Shown here in pieces: positions 32,155 through 40,615 of a DNA stretch of 46,836 nucleotides. The translations under genes were made by a program, and so were the position numbers. This DNA is from a virus: positions 1 through 46,836 of the IMG/VR virus record IMGVR_UViG_3300049830_000074; one strand, 5' to 3'. Numbering within the stretch: the first letter of the stretch is position 1; each line of letters starts with the position of its first letter. The notes below the pieces were generated by a model. The model ran no database searches and was not told the DNA's origin. It saw only the letters and a list, made by a program, of their open reading frames with translations.

Positions 32155-33006
32155 TCAATCGTCAAATTCCAACACTGTCACCATGCGGCATCGGCAGTTG
32201 ATGGCTTGGCCGGGGATGCCGCGTTCGCCAGTGCGTTCGTCAATTACTGGCAAATTGTCGAAGCTGTAAATCTTGCCGCTCATAGCGACATGAAGTGGGC
32301 GCGGCTCATTTGTGCCGCCTGTGTGCAACCACTCGAATTTTCCAAGGCCCAGCTTTTGCATTCTGTCGCGGTTCATGCAGTTGAACGCCTTGCGCGTCTG
32401 GTCGCCAGCAATCATGCGCGCGCGGCGATGCGTGATGCCTTTGTGCTTTTGCAGGTATGGCACGAGGTCTTGCAACCCGTTACCTGTGGTGATGGAACGC
32501 ATCACGGCCCCTTGCACGCCTGTCAGGTATTGTTGGGCGATGGATTTTATCAGCCCGACGTTCTCTGTGACCGTAGCCGACAGGACGGCTTGCATATCCG
32601 CGTCAAGCACGCGCGTTCCTAAGGATAGCCCACCGGATAGCTTTTGGATGCTTGAGTGCAACGCGGCGCTGCTTGATTTGTTTGCCTCGTTTGCCACTTG
32701 CTCCGCGATGGCCTTTGCATTGGTCGCAAACATGGAGTTGAATTTCTTCATCAAGGCATTGGTGACGATGCGCGCTTGACTCGCGGTGTTCTCGTCCATA
32801 GCGAAAAACTCTTGCGCGTGTTCGGCATCGAATAGCTTGCGCAGGTCGCGTTCGACTTCATCGGCCATGCGATTGATGAGAGATTCGAGCCTTTCGTAAT
32901 AGCGCAGTTCAGCCGAGGCCGATGGGTTCAACGGGTCGCCGCGCACCACGTCAGGCTTTCGCTTCTCCACCCACGCTTGCTTCCTCGTTGTCAGGAGTTT
33001 TGTCAT
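32155..33006 (-). CDS. Minor head protein, Mu F / SPP1 gp7-like
   Basis: A 283-aa protein starting at ATG 33006 (AAGGA upstream), overlapping the portal gene by 56 bases. The C-terminal ~130 residues have the Mu F-like domain: [58 protein letters not shown] and [13 protein letters not shown]. The protein is ejected with or packed near the portal in related phages. The N-terminal half is helical. Confidence 0.9.
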
Positions 33007-34564
33007 TTTCGTCCTTCGGTACGTCAATCATCATTTGCTGCATTTCCTGTTCGTGCTCACGGTCGCCGGGACCACCCGGCACGACTTCCGGCATACCGTT
33101 ATAGCCTGAATCGGGGTCGTTCACCAGCCGTTGACGCGCATCGAAGCCGTCGATAGCACCAGAGTTGATAAGGATGGCATCGGTTTCGGCCTTGGTTTTG
33201 TTCAACGTCGCTTGTTCTTCCGCCGTTGGTGAATCGCAAGGTTTCCATGTGATTTCGGTGCTGAATGGCGCAACGCCCATTTTGGGGGCAATGATGCTGC
33301 GAATCACAAGCAGGTGATGACGTTCAATCAGCGGCGCGAGTTCGTTTTCCTGAATGGATTCGAGATACTCGTGATAGCTGGCTTCCTCGTATTCCCCCGT
33401 GGCATTGAAACCCTTGGGGGTTGTGCCGAGCAGTTTGGTGGCAGGAACGTCAGCAGCAGCCGCTACGAGTTGATATTGCGTCATGATGGTTTCATCCAGT
33501 GAAGCGAGCGTGGTGTCGAATTGCTGTAACTCCTCACCCTCCCCGATGACTTTAATCCCGAAGTTGTTCTGATAGCTGGCCCAAATCTCCATCTTCTGCG
33601 AGAATTCCACTGGGTTCGCCAGCGCCTTCGTCACATCGGTTTTGATGGAGGTCAGCCGCTTGCTCATCGCCAACATGGGGGCTTCGTTCGCCGTGCGCTC
33701 CGCCGCGTAGACGCGCTCGAATATCTTCTGCGGTGTCGGGATGCCGCCGTAAAGATACGATGGCTTGAGGATGTCCGTCACTTCATCCCCGTTGCGCATG
33801 ATGACGAAATGCGTTTTGTGGATGCGCTTGCCGTTCACCCGCCACCATGTCGGTTCGTAAAACTCACCCGATGCTGGATTTGCCGCCGCGTTGCCGTCGA
33901 GTTCGGGCGCAACCCAATAGGGGTCGATTTGCACGATGCCGCGATAACTACCGGGCTTCACACCATCGGGATTGAAGGGCAACTCGTAGTCGATACCGTC
34001 CACGATGAACAGCGCATGGCGGATGCCGAAGATACGCCCGTTCTTGATGAATTCGATACATTTCTTTTTCAGCTTGAAGCGTTTGTCCAGCTTGCGCATG
34101 GAGTCAAAAACCTTTGGGTCGAGGTCTTCACCATCATTCGAAGTGATTTCCCAACCGTGGCGAACAGCATCCCTACCGGGCATGGTGCACGCCTTGTCGA
34201 TGAGCCAGTTTTGGGCAAGGATGGCGCAGGTTTGCCAGCCGATGAAACCTTGCGCGGCGTACCATTCAAGCTGTGCGAGGGGGAGATAACCCCCAGTGTT
34301 TGCCACCATCTTCGCGGTGCTTAAATCGGGGTATGCTTCATCCATCGCGTGCGTGACACCGCCGATGGGCGCGCCAGTAGAATCAACAGCCTTGAAACTC
34401 TCGATGCCGCGTTGGAAGGATTTGCGCAGGGCGTTCTGCATACGAATTTGCTCGCTCATTTGCGACGGCGGTGTGATTTGAGTCGTGAAGAAGCCGGAAC
34501 GCACAGGCAATTCGGCTTTCTCGACTTGGGGCGCTTGCCCGAACAACCAATTTCTCAATCCCAT
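32951..34564 (-). CDS. Portal protein (DUF1073)
   Basis: A 537-aa portal from ATG 34564 (preceded by AGGGGG). It has the DUF1073 portal pattern: [52 protein letters not shown] and [26 protein letters not shown] followed by [16 protein letters not shown]. The C-terminal ~50 residues are charged and extend over the start of the minor head gene. The frame is open 44 codons upstream of the chosen start but there is no ribosome site there. Confidence 0.93.
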
Positions 34565-34613
34565 GTAGCCCCCTGAGTTATTAAAGTTAGCACACTTGAA
34601 TACTTTGAGCAAT

Positions 34614-35984
34614 CTAGCTGAAAAAGCCCTTCGGTTTCTGCTTGATGCGCTTGCCAAGAGCGTAACGAACGGCATCCCAACCGTGATTATCTGCATCCAC
34701 TGGAATAGGCAATATTTCTTGCGTGACCTTATCGAGTTTCCACGAATACAGCTTGGCTTCTTTCACCATGTTCGGGCAGTGTGTTGAATGAATGACGATG
34801 CGCTTGTAAGATTTGAGGAAGCCGATTCCGTCCTCGACGCTACCCGGCCATTTCTCCGCTGACACAATATCGAAGCCCTTGCGTTTGATGTGCGACACAG
34901 TTTCCGGCCTCGCGCTGTCAGCCTCAATGCGCCACTTGCGAGCCGTAGGGATGCTATCGAACAACGCGGGGATTTCGTCAAGTTCCACCCCGTAGCCAAA
35001 CGCCTCGCGGTCGATGAACAGTTCCTTGCCGTCGGGTGATTCAAAACACCGCACAAGCGCCGTGGGGTCGTTCGCATAGCCCCAATCGGCCCCGTGCATG
35101 AATTCTGCGGTCGCGGGCGTTTCAAACTCCTCGAAGTAACACCGCGCACCGAAGATGGATGTGATGGAGATTTTGCGCGGCATCCCCAACCATACGTTGT
35201 CATAATCCAATTGGGCTTGTTCGCGTTCCTCGTCGGTGCGGGCGCGCGCGATGACGGCCAGCGAATCCTGACGTTCTTCCTCCAACTCAGCAGGGAAGAA
35301 TGGGTTCTGGTCGTAGTTAATGTGGCGGATGATGCTGTTGCGCGGCGGGTTGACGGTGAATTTAACGTGCGTGGGCGCGTCTTCGGCATCGGGGTTATAA
35401 TCCACCCATATTTCTGATTTGCCCGCGCGAATGGTGGGCGTGAGGACGCGCCACGACTTCTTGCCCATCTTGTGTGCCTCGGCGCACCACACGATGGTCA
35501 CGCCTTCCATCGACTTCGCGTTATCCACCGTTTTGTCGTTCAAGCCACGAAAGAAGAACACGCTCCCGCTGACCTTCGACCGAATGTGTGTTTTGGTTAT
35601 GTCGTAAAAATCCGAATACCCAAGCACAGCGATTTGTTGCACCAGCAATTCGTAAACCGATTCCTCGATGGAATTCTGCACGTCACGAGTGCACATGATG
35701 CGATGGGTTTGAACGTGCGCGCGGTAAAGCAACACGCGGGCGAACGACCATGAAGCGCCTTTGCCTCGGCCTCCGTAAACTACTTTATAGCGAGATTGCT
35801 CATAGAGAAAATCATAAGCCTTCGGGATTATCGGCTTCTGTGCTTTCCCCATCTTGTCACGCAAAAGGTTCTTCGCTGCCTCCCGCCGTTGTATCTCCAT
35901 CCCCAAGTTGAGGCCAGCTTTCACCAGTTGCGAGGGACTCAATGGCGGCGGCGACTTGTTTGAATTGCTCAAATAACTCGCCAT
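34614..35984 (-). CDS. terL: Terminase large subunit (PBSX-like)
   Basis: A 456-aa ATPase/nuclease that packages DNA. ATPase: adenine/Walker-A region [11 protein letters not shown] (71-79) and Walker-B-like [10 protein letters not shown] (162-171). Nuclease: [10 protein letters not shown] (Asp300), EADSARPE (Asp356) and the C-terminal [15 protein letters not shown] (Asp432/Asp437). Both ATPase motifs are atypical: the Walker-A lysine is shifted and the usual EEA of Walker B is AEA. The start at 35984 has AGGAG seven bases upstream and overlaps the upstream gene by 128 bases; starts at 35900 or 35852 lack a good site. Confidence 0.93.
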
Positions 35985-36363
35985 CGCTCATCTCCTGAAT
36001 TGCTGCAATATCGGCGTTGATGTTTGTTTGCACCAGCATACCGTCAATTTGTTCGTTCACCATTCGATTTGCCTGAATGTCGCCGTTCAATGCCTTGGTG
36101 AACACCGCGAGCGCCGCGCCTTGGGCGAACGTTCGTTTGCGGGGCAGAACGCGCTTCACAGAATTCTTGTCGTCAGCATCATACGTTTGCGCTCCGATAT
36201 AGCGCATGGCGTTGCGATGCGACCACGGCTTCGATGCGCCTTCGATGTGCTGCGATTGTTTATTGCCCCCCGGTTGGCCGAACTGCGTGGGCTTCTCCGA
36301 TTTCGCCAGCGCGTCACGCTGCCGCTGTTGGGGTGTTCGTTCTTCTGTGGGTTCGTCGGTCAT
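35857..36363 (-). CDS. Probable terminase small subunit
   Basis: A 168-aa protein directly upstream of and overlapping terL. The N-terminal part (FGQPGGNKQ, SHRNAMRYIGAQTYD) and the helical RTFAQGAALAVFTKAL segment resemble DNA-binding small terminase or DUF5681-like proteins; the C-terminal half is acidic ([20 protein letters not shown]). Position is the strongest argument; the sequence itself is only suggestive. Confidence 0.72.
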   Translation of the reverse strand: MTDEPTEERTPQQRQRDALAKSEKPTQFGQPGGNKQSQHIEGASKPWSHRNAMRYIGAQTYDADDKNSVKRVLPRKRTFAQGAALAVFTKALNGDIQANRMVNEQIDGMLVQTNINADIAAIQEMSDGELFEQFKQVAAAIESLATGESWPQLGDGDTTAGGSEEPFA

Positions 36364-36752
36364 TTTAGTACCTTATGTTGTTCCGCCATCATTCTATTTG
36401 GCTTAGAACCTTGGCGCAATGGTAAAGGTTCTGAGCCGCTACACGGGAAAAACACCTCATTTATTAACAAGCACCCGCAATCATACTCTTTATTTTTTAG
36501 TTTTTTCTTTAACTTTTTAATTCTTTTGGCAGAATGATGAGGATTGCGCGTCATGCGTTTCTTGCCATTATGCAGCATCATGTGGTCAGCACCCCAAATA
36601 AGCACAAGATTGAACGGGTCGTTATTCCCGTGGTCGCCGTCAAGATGATGTATATCGAACCCGCGCTTCAAAAGCGTCATCAATTCGAATACATCCATGC
36701 TTGAATTATCCGATAACCAAGCGTAATGATAAGGCTCTAGCTTACGTGACAT
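36360..36752 (-). CDS. HNH endonuclease next to the terminase genes
   Basis: A 130-aa protein with an HNH core at residues 33-62: DIHHLDGDHGNNDPFNL and IWGADHMMLHNG. A basic Lys-rich stretch follows (KRIKKLKKKLKNKEYDC) and then a Cys-Gly-Cys element. HNH proteins beside terminases assist specific DNA cleavage during packaging (e.g. HK97 gp74). It overlaps the small terminase start by ATGA and the GNAT gene end by 16 bases, so it is co-transcribed. A homing role cannot be ruled out. Confidence 0.85.
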   Translation of the reverse strand: MSRKLEPYHYAWLSDNSSMDVFELMTLLKRGFDIHHLDGDHGNNDPFNLVLIWGADHMMLHNGKKRMTRNPHHSAKRIKKLKKKLKNKEYDCGCLLINEVFFPCSGSEPLPLRQGSKPNRMMAEQHKVLK

Positions 36753-37153
36753 TGTGATTCCTCAGGTTGATAACGGTAAGAAAACGTTTTCACCTTTTTG
36801 CGAAAGCCTGTGTCGCGTGTCATGTTACCGCCACCTGATGCTGTATCATACGCGATTTTCTCAAGTTTCCAATTTTTATCATTTGCGCGTGATTTTACCA
36901 TGACCAAATTACTTAATTTGGCAAACAATTCATGGCCTTCGCAAAGAATTTCTGCTGTTTTATTTACCAATTTCATGCCAAGCCCGAAGCCGCAAAAGTC
37001 AGGATGGATGACGGTGCGATTGCTGTGCAGCTTGCGCGGTTCGTTTTTGTCGCGCCACGGCGTGTATTCCGCCCAGCATTGAAAACCGACTTGTTCTTGC
37101 CCAACAAATAAACCATAAGTTTTGATGTAACCACCGGGCAAATTCTCGTTCAA
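36737..37153 (-). CDS. GNAT acetyltransferase-like domain, probably 3' part of an ATPase-GNAT fusion
   Basis: Taken alone this frame can only start at TTG 37153, overlapping the ATPase stop (TTGA), with no ribosome site. It contains the GNAT motif-A region SNRTVIHPDFCGFGLGMKLV (acyl-CoA loop FGLG). The same frame stays open upstream to about 37255 and there encodes IRECDKRTWRYFSKYHYLNE, which fits the missing start of the GNAT domain as found in COG2401 proteins. So the true product is probably ATPase-GNAT made by a -1 frame change at the T9 tract 37238-37246. The substrate is unknown; the GNAT-fold Mom protein of phage Mu modifies adenine, which is suggestive only. Confidence 0.8.
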   Translation of the reverse strand: MNENLPGGYIKTYGLFVGQEQVGFQCWAEYTPWRDKNEPRKLHSNRTVIHPDFCGFGLGMKLVNKTAEILCEGHELFAKLSNLVMVKSRANDKNWKLEKIAYDTASGGGNMTRDTGFRKKVKTFSYRYQPEESQCHVS

Positions 37154-37863
37154 ATAGTGATACTTGCTAAAATAGCGCCAAGTGCGCTTGTCGCATTCTC
37201 GAATGTCGAATTGGATTCGCTCGGTTCGTTTGAAGTCAAAAAAAAAGCACGTCGGTCAATGTACTCGGCTTTGTTGCAATCAATTATCCAACACGGGTTA
37301 AGCCATTCTATTACATCGTAATGACACGAAAGCAACACCACTTTCTTGCCGCTGCGACGCGCAATCTTTTGCACGGTGTGCGCCATTGCCTTCGCCACGG
37401 TGCGGTCGACCACCGAAGTAAATTCATCAATCACGATTGTTTCGTCATTCGATGCGAGGCGCAAAGCTATTTCAGCGCGTGCTTGTTGCCCGTTGCTCAA
37501 TGTGGCGGCGGGCCTTATCCAGCACGTCACGCTCGACAACCCCGCGCCGCCTAACGCCGCCGCGCAATCGTCAAACGTCATGCTTTGCGGGAATTGCTCA
37601 ATCACAGGCAGGGCCTTATCCAGCACGTCACGGAAGCAATCACCGAATATCTGGCGCGCAAGCGTCGTCTTGCCTGAGCCTGATGCGCCCACTATCAGCC
37701 CGACGTTGTAGGGCGTGTTTAAATCGGCTTCAATATGCAGCGCGTGCGTCAGCTTTTTCGCCACATCAAGGTCGGTGCTGTTCGCGGCTTTGATGCAACG
37801 GAAGCTGTTCGAAGGCTGCGCGCTCAACAAAACGTCATAGGATTTCAGGACAGAAGTTTGCAT
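37150..37863 (-). CDS. ABC-type ATPase (COG2401-like), associated with ParB and GNAT
   Basis: A 237-aa ATPase from ATG 37863 (GGGAG upstream). All ABC motifs are present: Walker A GASGSGKTT (59-67), signature LSNGQQAR (122-129), Walker B TIVIDE (142-147), D-loop and H-switch SCHYD (His181). No membrane domain is encoded nearby, so it is not a transporter. It overlaps the ParB-like gene by 19 bases and the GNAT frame downstream. Its last ~29 residues (after the T9 tract) are low in structure and are probably a by-product of reading the wrong frame; in the COG2401 family the ATPase is fused to an acetyltransferase. Confidence 0.85.
   Translation of the reverse strand: MQTSVLKSYDVLLSAQPSNSFRCIKAANSTDLDVAKKLTHALHIEADLNTPYNVGLIVGASGSGKTTLARQIFGDCFRDVLDKALPVIEQFPQSMTFDDCAAALGGAGLSSVTCWIRPAATLSNGQQARAEIALRLASNDETIVIDEFTSVVDRTVAKAMAHTVQKIARRSGKKVVLLSCHYDVIEWLNPCWIIDCNKAEYIDRRAFFLTSNEPSESNSTFENATSALGAILASITI
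37238..37246 (-). other. T9 tract at the ATPase/GNAT frame junction
   Basis: On the minus strand the ATPase codons read GCT TTT TTT TTG ACT, containing T TTT TTT. A -1 shift anywhere in the tract joins the ATPase at Phe208 to FDFKRTERIQFDIRECDKRT and on into the GNAT domain, giving about 375 aa. It could be programmed ribosomal frameshifting, polymerase slippage, a real inactivating indel, or a one-base sequencing/assembly error in a homopolymer (T10 would give one open frame). Confidence 0.75.
37510..37632. repeat. 22-bp direct repeat inside the ATPase gene
   Basis: The 22-base sequence beginning GGGCCTTATCCAGCACGTCA occurs at 37510-37531 and again at 37611-37632. The spacing of 101 bp is not a multiple of three, so the two copies are read in different frames: one as part of VTCWIRP just before the ABC signature, the other as RDVLDKAL. 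Recombination between copies would delete 101 bp and frameshift the gene. Confidence 0.9.
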
Positions 37864-38411
37864 GGCAACTCCCGCGTTTGCATTTCTTCGAAAAACGATT
37901 GTTGCTGTTCTTCGTCCGGCAATTCCACCAAACACACAAATCCGTCGGTGTCTGTAATGGCTGGGTTTTCTTGTCGATTTGACTTGGGCAACACATCCAT
38001 CCCGTATTCTTCAAGTTCAACGCCGACATAATCCTGTTCCACGATTTCAATATCCCACTCACCGAAATGCGTGTTGTCGGTTATCATGATTTCTTTGAAC
38101 TCGGCCTCGGTGAGCGCACGGTCGGGGATGCTGACATAAACCTCGTCGATTCCTAATTCTTTCAACGCGCGGATTCTTACGTGGCCCCCGATAATTCGAC
38201 CATCAAGCGTGGCGGTGATGGGCTTGTGAAACCCCACACGGGCAATCGAGCGTTTCAGTTTCTCGAAATCCTCTGGCGTTATTTTGCGCGGGTTGCGCTC
38301 GTACGGGATGAGGCTATCGACGCGGGATTTGACCACAGCCCATTGTATTTGCTTAGAAACGCCTGACTCGTTTTCTAAACGGATTGTTTTGTCTGTGGTT
38401 TTGTTTTCCAT
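37845..38411 (-). CDS. ParB/Srx-domain protein
   Basis: A 188-aa protein with the ParB N-terminal domain: SLIPYERNPRKITPEDFEKL, then SIARVGFHKPITATLDGRII and the conserved GGHVRIRALKELG (75-87; phosphate/CTP-binding-type motif in the family). No helix-turn-helix DNA-binding domain follows, so it is not a chromosome-partition ParB; phage members of this type are predicted nucleases or DNA-associated adaptor proteins. The C-terminal FVCLVELPDEEQQQSFFEEM segment is typical of these phage ParB-like proteins. Overlap with the ATPase gene suggests one functional unit. Confidence 0.88.
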   Translation of the reverse strand: MENKTTDKTIRLENESGVSKQIQWAVVKSRVDSLIPYERNPRKITPEDFEKLKRSIARVGFHKPITATLDGRIIGGHVRIRALKELGIDEVYVSIPDRALTEAEFKEIMITDNTHFGEWDIEIVEQDYVGVELEEYGMDVLPKSNRQENPAITDTDGFVCLVELPDEEQQQSFFEEMQTRELPCKLLS

Positions 38412-38790: not shown

Positions 38791-39407
38791 GGCAACATCT
38801 TCGTTTCTAGGGTTTCAATCTCTCGCATCGCCGTTTGGCGTTCTTCGTAATCGCACAGCTTGCCAGAAACGTAATTCTCGCAGAAGCGAAGATATTCACG
38901 CTGATTTCCAGTGATGAATTGATTCTCTCGAATCTTTTGGCGGATGCCGATGTAAGCGGGCCAATCGGGTTTCGGTGGCGGTGGGTCGATGATATTCACA
39001 ATGTCAGCAGGGGTTGGAAACTCGTTCGAACGTTTGATGTGTTCCCGAATACCACGCTCGATTTCGGTTATTTCGTAACGGCTTAGAGCGATGTGATGCA
39101 GCTTGATTGCGTTTTCCAATTGTTCCGGCTCCTTGCCGTAAACTCGTAGGCCATCGTAAAGCACCCGCAGGATGTTGGTGAGTTTTTTTTGCCCTTCGTC
39201 ATCCCGTGCCAGCGGCTTAACCGTTGAAATCACCCGCGATTGATTCATGGGCGCGACGGGCAGCGGCATCGGCTCGTTCTGATTTGGTTGGGATACCAGC
39301 GGCGAATATCCTTTGACCTCCAACCCCTGTTTGATTCGGTCGAGAACCGCCGTTAGCGAAGCGTTCCCAGTCGAAGGAGTTTCGATAGGCTGCGATGAAG
39401 TCGTCAT
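38781..39407 (-). CDS. Putative replication accessory (helicase-loader-like) protein, 208 aa
   Basis: It follows the DUF1376 replication gene and overlaps it by 191 bases. The middle is helical (KKLTNILRVLYDGLRVYG, LHHIALSRYEITEIERGIRE) and contains NEFPTPADIVNIIDPP, a Pro-rich element often seen in phage replication proteins that act with helicase. ATG 39407 has AAAGG eight bases upstream; internal starts at 39269 or 39248 would reduce the overlap but lack such a site. Function is inferred from position and the FPTPADI element. Confidence 0.65.
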   Translation of the reverse strand: MTTSSQPIETPSTGNASLTAVLDRIKQGLEVKGYSPLVSQPNQNEPMPLPVAPMNQSRVISTVKPLARDDEGQKKLTNILRVLYDGLRVYGKEPEQLENAIKLHHIALSRYEITEIERGIREHIKRSNEFPTPADIVNIIDPPPPKPDWPAYIGIRQKIRENQFITGNQREYLRFCENYVSGKLCDYEERQTAMREIETLETKMLPCS

Positions 39408-40032
39408 ATTTTTTACCTTTCGATTTGCAATAATCTTTGAATTTTTCCAAAATGAACGTTTCGTCGTGATTGAGATAATACCCCTCGGCTCGTTTTTTTG
39501 CTAACCAATCAGAAATGTGGTCGACCGTCAAATCATCCAAGGCAACTCGCGCCCGCGTTTTATTCTCTTTCTTCTCTTTCTTATGTTCTGTTCTGTTATG
39601 TTCAGCTTTCTGTTGGGTTATGAAATCAAAAGCGACAGGTTTATTTGTTTGTTCATTCAATGCGTTATCATTTTCGAGATTTGTTTTTGGCCTTCCTCCT
39701 TTGCGCCCGTTCTCGATCGCTTTCGTGATTCTAGCGTCGTGCAAACCCAATTCTGCATCGCAAAAATCATGACGTAAAAAACCCAGTGGGTTATCGCTGG
39801 GTTTGAAGTAGGTTTTGATTTGGTTTTTTATCGCGTCCCATTCTTCACGCCCCACGCCCACGATACGAGCGAGCGCCGCGTCATTGTCGGGCAATGGCTG
39901 TTTCGTTGTCATGTAATGGTCGATTAAGCGCCTGTAAGCGCCATCTTCGGCAAGCGTCAAGTGCTGCGTGGCTCCCGCGTAAAGCGAAGGAAACCATGAA
40001 TAATAAAAATGGCCAGCTTTGGATTTTGGCAT
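39217..40032 (-). CDS. DUF1376 replication initiation (O-like) protein
   Basis: A 271-aa protein from ATG 40032, with GAGG seven bases before it. The DUF1376 domain spans residues ~8-115 (FYYSWFPSLYAGATQHLTLA, GAYRRLIDHYM, GFLRHDFCD, then AIENGRKGGRPK). A Lys/Glu-rich linker and a C-terminal DnaT/helicase-interaction-like part (TFILEKFKDYCKSKGKKYDD, FIAAYRNSFDWERF) follow. It probably binds the origin and recruits host helicase. The ribosome site lies inside a long inverted repeat (see 40039-40097), implying translational control. Confidence 0.85.
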   Translation of the reverse strand: MPKSKAGHFYYSWFPSLYAGATQHLTLAEDGAYRRLIDHYMTTKQPLPDNDAALARIVGVGREEWDAIKNQIKTYFKPSDNPLGFLRHDFCDAELGLHDARITKAIENGRKGGRPKTNLENDNALNEQTNKPVAFDFITQQKAEHNRTEHKKEKKENKTRARVALDDLTVDHISDWLAKKRAEGYYLNHDETFILEKFKDYCKSKGKKYDDFIAAYRNSFDWERFANGGSRPNQTGVGGQRIFAAGIPTKSERADAAARRAHESIAGDFNG

Positions 40033-40038
40033 AATGAA

Positions 40039-40097
40039 CCTCGCAAGATGGTTAAGGGGTAGGAATACGCCACCTTGCGAGTCCCGCAACCTACCCC
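40039..40097 (-). promoter_or_regulatory. Structured leader (interleaved inverted repeats) of the replication gene
   Basis: On the minus strand, GGGGTAGG (40097-40090) is complementary to CCTACCCC (40063-40056), and CTCGCAAGGTGG (40081-40070) is complementary to CCATCTTGCGAG (40051-40040; one G-T). The arms are interleaved, as in an H-type pseudoknot, and the last arm contains the GAGG ribosome site of ATG 40032. A third short pairing (TTGCG with CGCAA around GGACT) competes for the same arm, so a switch between open and closed forms is possible. Confidence 0.7.
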
Positions 40098-40231: not shown

Positions 40232-40615
40232 TTATGTGATGTGAACTTTTACGCTATAAATCGCTTCAAAAATGGCGATGCGCAGCGCAGAGGTGATGTC
40301 CATGTGTCCTTTTTTGTCCTCGATAACCAGTTGCCACTCGCCATTCGTCAACCGACGATAAACGAAATCTGGTGTGTAAACCGCAATCCTGCCCGTGGGC
40401 GTGAGCACCGCGCGCTCCTCGTCAATCCTAAGAGGAAATCGCACCTGCCTTTGCAAATCTTTGACGTGACCGCGTTCCTGTAACGATAAAAGTTCGCACC
40501 AGCGCCGCATTTCGGCTGCCGAGTGGTGTTGGATGCCGTCAGGGCTAGTTCGCTGCTCCTTGGGCTTTATTGTGCGCTGTGCGTGCCATGCTTGACCTTT
40601 GCGAGCGTGGAACAT
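40232..40615 (-). CDS. DUF1064 predicted nuclease
   Basis: A 127-aa protein matching DUF1064, a restriction-endonuclease-like phage family: an N-terminal basic segment (KPKEQRTSPDGIQHHSAAEM), HVKDLQRQVRFPL, then YTPDFVYRRL and LVIEDKKGHMDI. The acidic and lysine residues of PDFVY and IEDKKG form the PD-(D/E)xK core. It could act as a Holliday-junction or flap nuclease in replication/recombination; the substrate is not known. The start overlaps the previous stop (TAATG). Confidence 0.87.
   Translation of the reverse strand: MFHARKGQAWHAQRTIKPKEQRTSPDGIQHHSAAEMRRWCELLSLQERGHVKDLQRQVRFPLRIDEERAVLTPTGRIAVYTPDFVYRRLTNGEWQLVIEDKKGHMDITSALRIAIFEAIYSVKVHIT

Follow-up and report, generated by a model that had tools for sequence, protein, structure and literature searches.

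The window, by which we mean the whole 46,836-nt (46.8-kb) stretch of viral DNA analysed, carries a cassette of three overlapping ORFs on its minus strand. The first (37845..38411) encodes a 188-aa protein with a ParB/Srx N-terminal domain; PHROG matches reaching 1e-25 (phrog_620, E=1.7e-25) place its ParB_N domain in the ParB/Srx superfamily, and the ParB_N-like Pfam match is sub-threshold (E=6.5e-4). The 3' end of this gene overlaps by 19 nt the start of a 237-aa ABC ATPase ORF (37150..37863, ATG at 37863; PF00005, E=3.5e-8), in which the Walker A (GASGSGKT), signature (LSNGQ), Walker B (VIDE) and D-loop (SVVDR) motifs are all present. Read in its own frame, the ATPase ORF ends in a non-homologous tail (...LASITI*) whose final SITI is followed by TGA at 37150-37152. 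The third is a GNAT-like ORF opening with TTG (36737..37153), with a weak Pfam match (E=0.03) and a match to the acetyltransferase family phrog_7693 (E=4e-7). As the earlier sequence-only reading had proposed, the cassette lies directly before HNH and terminase genes: on the same strand follow an HNH endonuclease-like gene (36360..36752; PF13392, E=7e-5; phrog_15471, E=1e-7), an ORF in the usual small-terminase position with no profile match in Pfam or PHROG (35857..36363), the terminase large subunit (34614..35984; Terminase_3, E=3.8e-24) and the portal protein (32951..34696; PF06381, E=2e-87). Upstream is a replication region encoding a DUF1376 primosomal-like protein (39217-40089) and a DUF1064 Holliday-junction-resolvase-like protein (40232-40615).

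The ATPase and GNAT ORFs had been suspected to be parts of one fusion, and their membership of one fusion family is supported. The ATPase ORF matches the first half of a single 357-aa family, phrog_11143 (E=2e-56 over profile positions 21-193), and the GNAT ORF its second half (E=2e-8 over positions 258-355). In nearly all homologs the fusion is a single ORF of ~370 aa; in the window it lies in two frames. All three ORFs of the sequence-only reading are found where it placed them, but two of them, for the ATPase and GNAT, are not ordinary separate genes: they appear to be one recoded gene, whose recoding site that reading overlooked. Its remark that the cassette has no transporter context holds, as neither a membrane partner nor a transmembrane domain was seen among the annotated neighbours in the cassette loci inspected. 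Identity as an ABC transporter was dropped for the same lack of a membrane partner.

The cassette in other phages and its putative substrate

Relatives were collected by scanning IMG/VR, GTDB genomes and phage records, giving about 250 loci (L numbers below). ParB is adjacent upstream in 206/237 homologous loci with enough sequence, far above chance, and ParB, ABC ATPase and GNAT form a recurrent cassette. Phages that carry it include Pasteurella Pmp13, Leptospira LE3/LE4, Lactococcus P335, Streptococcus Javan phages, Oenococcus Vinitor and Gordonia Jace, and several of those named have terminase genes directly downstream. The four GTDB loci that we checked (L154, L163, L134 and L107, from Planctomycetes and Endozoicomonas) sit directly upstream of terminase/portal genes and are therefore prophages; a chromosomal function for the GTDB loci was dismissed on this basis. 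In SSU5-like and nickie-like phages, among them SSU5 (L253 2336-3639) and phiK7B1 (L257 2312-3639), ParB and the ATPase are kept with no recognisable GNAT and with another small gene after them, and the ATPase may have partners other than GNAT.

In records from Streptococcus, Lactococcus and Oenococcus (L085, L087 and L089) the ATPase is annotated as 'ABC iron siderophore' or another ABC transporter, and in some of them ParB is labelled 'DNA modification methylase'; these are probable mis-annotations. If our reading is true, the cassette is widespread and usually mis-annotated under such labels ('ABC iron siderophore transporter', 'DNA modification methylase') or as hypothetical. A known defence system was also considered and rejected. 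PADLOC gives only ABC-core matches to mad3 and mad8; the match to mad3 of the MADS defence system covers only the ABC signature/Walker B region (residues 113-173), and the loci are phage late regions.

Among the roles put forward earlier, base modification is, as far as comparative evidence can indicate, the best functional reading. Acyl base modification was predicted for the ABC ATPase-GNAT family by the Aravind group, who name phage pT24 and cite Iyer et al. 2013 (PMC7824862), and pT24 is a member of the present family by sequence (35% identity, with 85% of the query covered). The cassette had been called uncharacterised, which is correct experimentally, but the system was already known and predicted by that group; no paper was found in the literature under COG2401, the name used for such fusions in the sequence-only reading. 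Exchange with Mom strengthens the prediction. Between flanks that are 87% identical, phages of Porphyromonas gingivalis hold in one slot either the ATPase-GNAT gene together with a gene annotated 'phosphoribosylglycinamide formyltransferase' (L093 3706-5642) or, in phage012a, a Mom-like gene (L291 5363-6175). The formyltransferase annotation is only suggestive as a hint of acyl chemistry. Furthermore, ParB is directly followed by Mom in Microbacterium phage Appa, and the ParB domain of the window matches phrog_498 'DNA methyltransferase' at 5e-26. Because of the earlier family prediction, the Porphyromonas exchange and the pairing of ParB with Mom and with methyltransferases, DNA base acylation is our best guess at the function, and DNA is somewhat favoured as the substrate of the GNAT domain. 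Packaging-linked DNA marking, also suggested earlier, was not upheld, gene order alone being behind it.

The GNAT domain is not, by profile, a clear member of the Mom family. Only 4/23 GNAT domains match the Mom profile (PF25680; best E=0.0046) vs 22/23 for general GNAT, and HYL occupies the aligned position of the invariant HYS of Mom. The parallel with Mom drawn in the sequence-only reading found little backing in a direct profile comparison (hhalign, E=0.003, probability 10%), which makes the GNAT domain a remote relative at best. Aeromonas phage PX29 has a gene for a Mom-like protein (L294 532-1416) as well as one for an ATPase-GNAT fusion (L092 3836-5014).

GNATs most often acylate the amines of proteins and small molecules, the Pfam matches here are better for general acetyltransferases than for Mom, and the Foldseek matches of the GNAT domain include the protein acetyltransferases NatE and HP0935. 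The recoding described below could therefore be real and the enzyme nevertheless acylate a protein (terminase, a nucleoid protein or a defence protein) or serve counter-defence, rather than act on DNA bases. We consider this rather unlikely, since Mom swaps into the same position, ParB is common to Mom and the methyltransferases, and base modification has been predicted in print (PMC7824862).

A T9 run at the ATPase/GNAT junction

The GNAT frame of the window does not begin at its TTG. It extends upstream through a conserved 28-residue linker, DFKRTERIQFDIRECDKRTWRYFSKYHYL, as far as a T9 run that lies within the ATPase ORF (37238..37246, minus strand; A9 on the plus strand), a candidate slippery recoding site and the only A/T run of at least 9 in the 46.8-kb window. 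The linker and GNAT domain together occupy 36737..37246 (minus strand) in the -1 frame, the TTG ORF (36737-37153) being the 3' part. The stretch at 37150..37237 on the same strand is dual-coded, specifying the ATPase-frame tail and, in the -1 frame, the linker and the first part of the GNAT fold. The junction reads CGA CGT GCT TTT TTT TTG; it has no prfB-type AGG/GGG-NNN-CTT/GTT motif, the T9 run being there instead. A -1 shift at gcT TTT TTT TTg restores the linker and GNAT domain and gives a 375-aa ATPase-GNAT fusion that aligns end to end with intact-fusion homologs (48-59% identity); the shifted product would contain DFKRTERIQFDIR joined to the ATPase. AlphaFold models an ATPase-GNAT fusion confidently (mean pLDDT 89), and the window's ATPase-only product as a folded ATPase with a disordered tail (residues 210-237, pLDDT below 50). 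The junction is very likely a recoding site.

Similar junctions are found in other members of the family. In each of the 14 split members that we inspected (the window, L002, L006, L049, L053, L059, L062, L085, L087-L089, L207, L210 and L212), GNAT lies in the -1 frame relative to the ATPase, most of them at T/A runs or A_AAA_AAG. Split examples among phages are Javan141, P335, MismyG and Vinitor-27, and Enterococcus phage 9184 (A_AAA_AAG) and phage TR-TP2 are further cases with GNAT in the -1 frame. The run is T9 in the window, L207 and L212, A10 in L002, L006, L210, L049 and L062, and A9 in L053; among relatives of the window in the fused phase, the run is T10 (L193, L195, L198 and L201) or A10 (L237 and L245). 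As runs in split and in fused phase stand at the same place, both products should be reachable in either phase. The ATPase ORF of the split members uses the +1 frame of the fused relatives and ends at the same stop in all but L006, and an alignment of eight natural ATPase-only ORFs extends over the tail, with Gly, Leu, Ile and Ile as invariant residues. L002 and L006 are closely similar contigs with a C/T difference just before the A10 run (at about 6560 and about 8600, respectively); in L006 a TAA at that point ends the ATPase frame ahead of the tail. In phage pT24 (L254 3418-4065) the GNAT part contains an in-frame TGA (VPV*INV), for which read-through, reassignment or an error may account, and the fusion is annotated as two CDS.

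An assembly error, with T10 read as T9, would explain the split in the window, for T10 would put the gene in frame as it is in L193-L201; a decayed gene is the other possibility of this kind. Both are unlikely. The T9 runs of L207 and L212 occupy the same place and are independent, their flanks being different; the tail of the window retains the family's ...SITI* end, and the -1 frame retains the linker and all GNAT motifs. Should the run be T10, the window gene would be grouped with the T10 members, its slippery site unmoved and its phase changed, and the family-level recoding claim would be unaffected.

Still less probable is that the cassette consists of three separate overlapping genes, with termination-reinitiation at the TTGA overlap starting GNAT from the TTG at 37153. 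The TTG and the ATPase TGA do share 4 nt, and P335 and similar phages are annotated with separate overlapping ATPase and GNAT genes, but no Shine-Dalgarno sequence precedes the TTG, and a start there would drop the HY of the conserved HYL motif. Above the TTG, the GNAT frame has no ATG, GTG or TTG start and codes for the conserved linker and the first strand and helix of the domain (strand 216-220 and helix 223-228 in the AlphaFold model of L014).

Constraint on the +1 frame of fused relatives

Recoding of the fused relatives is indicated by a second frame within the single ORF. The +1 frame before HYL is open in 202/202 distinct fused homologs and stops at the same place in 200; 171/202 carry AGG/GGG-NNN-CTT/GTT. 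De-duplication to below 70% identity left a set of 120 relatives, every one of which has an open +1 frame (120/120, vs a background of 39% elsewhere in the same genes); the -1 frame is open in 31/120, vs a background of 45%. The +1 stop falls at one fixed codon in 119/120 of this set, the codon that also ends the ATPase-frame tail of the window, inside the HYL motif that starts the GNAT domain. Among 103 motif-bearing relatives, +1 stops were found at 0/2266 codon positions after CTT vs 166/4120 before it. The resulting tails of 25-31 codons end in ITI, III or FTI, always in Ile, and the window's own tail ends in ITI.

Codon choice follows the second frame. The Ser after HYL is AGY in 80/80 vs 35% AGY elsewhere, because the +1 stop needs it and TCN would abolish that stop, and the Tyr of HYL is TAT in 120/120, a codon that gives the +1 tail its terminal Ile. 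The junction codons are nearly invariant in DNA while the amino acids vary (CGG AGG TCA CTT TGG CGA, with AGG/GGG-NNN-CTT/GTT variants). In the codon alignment the strongest synonymous constraint of the gene is at the junction (AGG 23/23 and CTT 18/18 of the residues scored), a signal also found in the 120-sequence set, and the 14 columns of highest synonymous constraint all lie between the motif, with the codons just upstream, and the stop. A +1-frame Gly nine residues from the end was dismissed as a conserved residue, as it is imposed by an invariant Trp TGG codon. The alternative (+1) frame is under selection, as would be expected of programmed recoding. By its sequence, the gene appears built for two products, an ATPase with a short tail ending in I-T/I-I and an ATPase-GNAT. 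That the +1 frame is instead a small overlapping gene in its own right, started independently, is barely credible and was rejected for lack of conserved start codons: an ATG occurs somewhere in the +1 ORF in 59/119, but 15/119 have no ATG, GTG or TTG at all, the constraint starts at the AGG-AGG-N-CTT site, and in split members the same tail is the natural ATPase C-terminus.

The A site that follows CUU holds a sense codon (UGG, CGA, CGG or CAA) and not a stop. A stop codon in the A site drives the prfB shift, and with a sense codon there the efficiency of shifting could be low; where GUU takes the place of CUU, its pairing once the ribosome has slipped by +1 is poor. In one clade (L021, L026, L032 and L192) AGG-AGG or AGG-AGT is followed by ATG/GTG instead of CTT, with the +1 frame still open to the same stop, and the prfB-like shift model fits this AUG/GUG clade less well. 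The distant jumbo/T4-like members pT24 and PX29 lack the +1 tail, from which it follows that the fusion can work without it. Three junctions folded no better than their shuffles (z about 0.3), giving no sign of a stimulatory RNA structure, and the window has no Rfam matches. The domains and the predicted function were already known; the recoding appears to be new. Among openly accessible papers we found no published account of it in the ATPase-GNAT family.

Proposed mechanism and comparison with known systems

The sequences show two conserved overlapping frames, recoding motifs, a conserved cassette and an exchange with Mom; that both proteins are made, their ratio, their complex and its substrate are what we infer from these. 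In the window, slippage on the T9 run, by ribosomes or by RNA polymerase, would produce two proteins from one gene: normal decoding would give the ATPase with its short tail, and a -1 shift, or the gain of one U, the ATPase-GNAT. In most relatives normal decoding gives the fusion instead, and some ribosomes would be diverted to the ATPase-only frame at a prfB-like +1 site (Shine-Dalgarno AGGAGG or AGGGGG, 3 nt, then CUU/GUU). ABC ATPases work as dimers, and mixed complexes of ATPase and ATPase-GNAT may therefore form. ParB would load such complexes on DNA, or select them for it, and late in infection GNAT would transfer an acyl group to a base of the phage DNA, which would hide that DNA from restriction. 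The explanation as a whole, with one recoded gene, two products and ParB-guided base acylation, seems to us fairly likely. A more specific version is tentative and, in our judgement, a little more apt to fail than to hold: a modification machine whose stoichiometry would be set by family-wide recoding, prfB-like (with a sense codon in the A site) or homopolymeric, comprising the ATPase with a dual-coded tail ending in Ile, the acyltransferase fusion and ParB, and producing a new acylated base.

The two-product signal is conserved in >100 diverged phages and prophages. If the interpretation is true, few programmed-frameshift sites other than those of prfB, dnaX, tail-chaperone and IS genes are conserved as widely as this one, and lineages switch between ribosomal and homopolymer recoding with the same two products kept. 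The old prediction of an unknown base modification would also be testable in the culturable Lactococcus P335, Leptospira LE4 and Pasteurella Pmp13.

The closest known system is the set of ABC ATPase-GNAT candidates of the Aravind group (PHROG 11143), which is the same family, with ATPase then GNAT and a predicted acyl base modification. The published treatment (PMC7824862) mentions neither recoding nor ParB in connection with this family, and its example, pT24, is without the +1 tail. As for the recoding site, prfB (release factor 2) has the same internal Shine-Dalgarno, 3-nt spacer and CUU shift codon in the same register, 3 nt being the Shine-Dalgarno spacing given for +1 shifts in a review (PMC5009743). 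The two differ in that prfB has UGA in the A site, whereas the cassette family has a sense codon and the long product as default frame; the site in the cassette family probably sets the ratio of two proteins, unlike the RF2 sensing of prfB. In its products the gene resembles dnaX, where tau and gamma are likewise an ATPase with and without a C-terminal domain from one gene, and where, depending on the bacterium, two products arise by -1 shifting, transcriptional slippage or reversed phase (PMC5009743). The ATPase and C-terminal domain of dnaX are unrelated to those of the cassette, however, and the short product of the cassette has a conserved-frame tail of 25-31 codons. Mu Mom and Mom-like proteins share the GNAT fold, an HY motif after the first helix, the Porphyromonas slot and the ParB partner in Appa, but have no ABC ATPase and an invariant HYS, and the sequence link is marginal. 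Finally, the phage ParB-methyltransferases (phrog_498) have a homologous ParB domain and often lie upstream of terminase, with a methyltransferase in place of the ATPase-GNAT.
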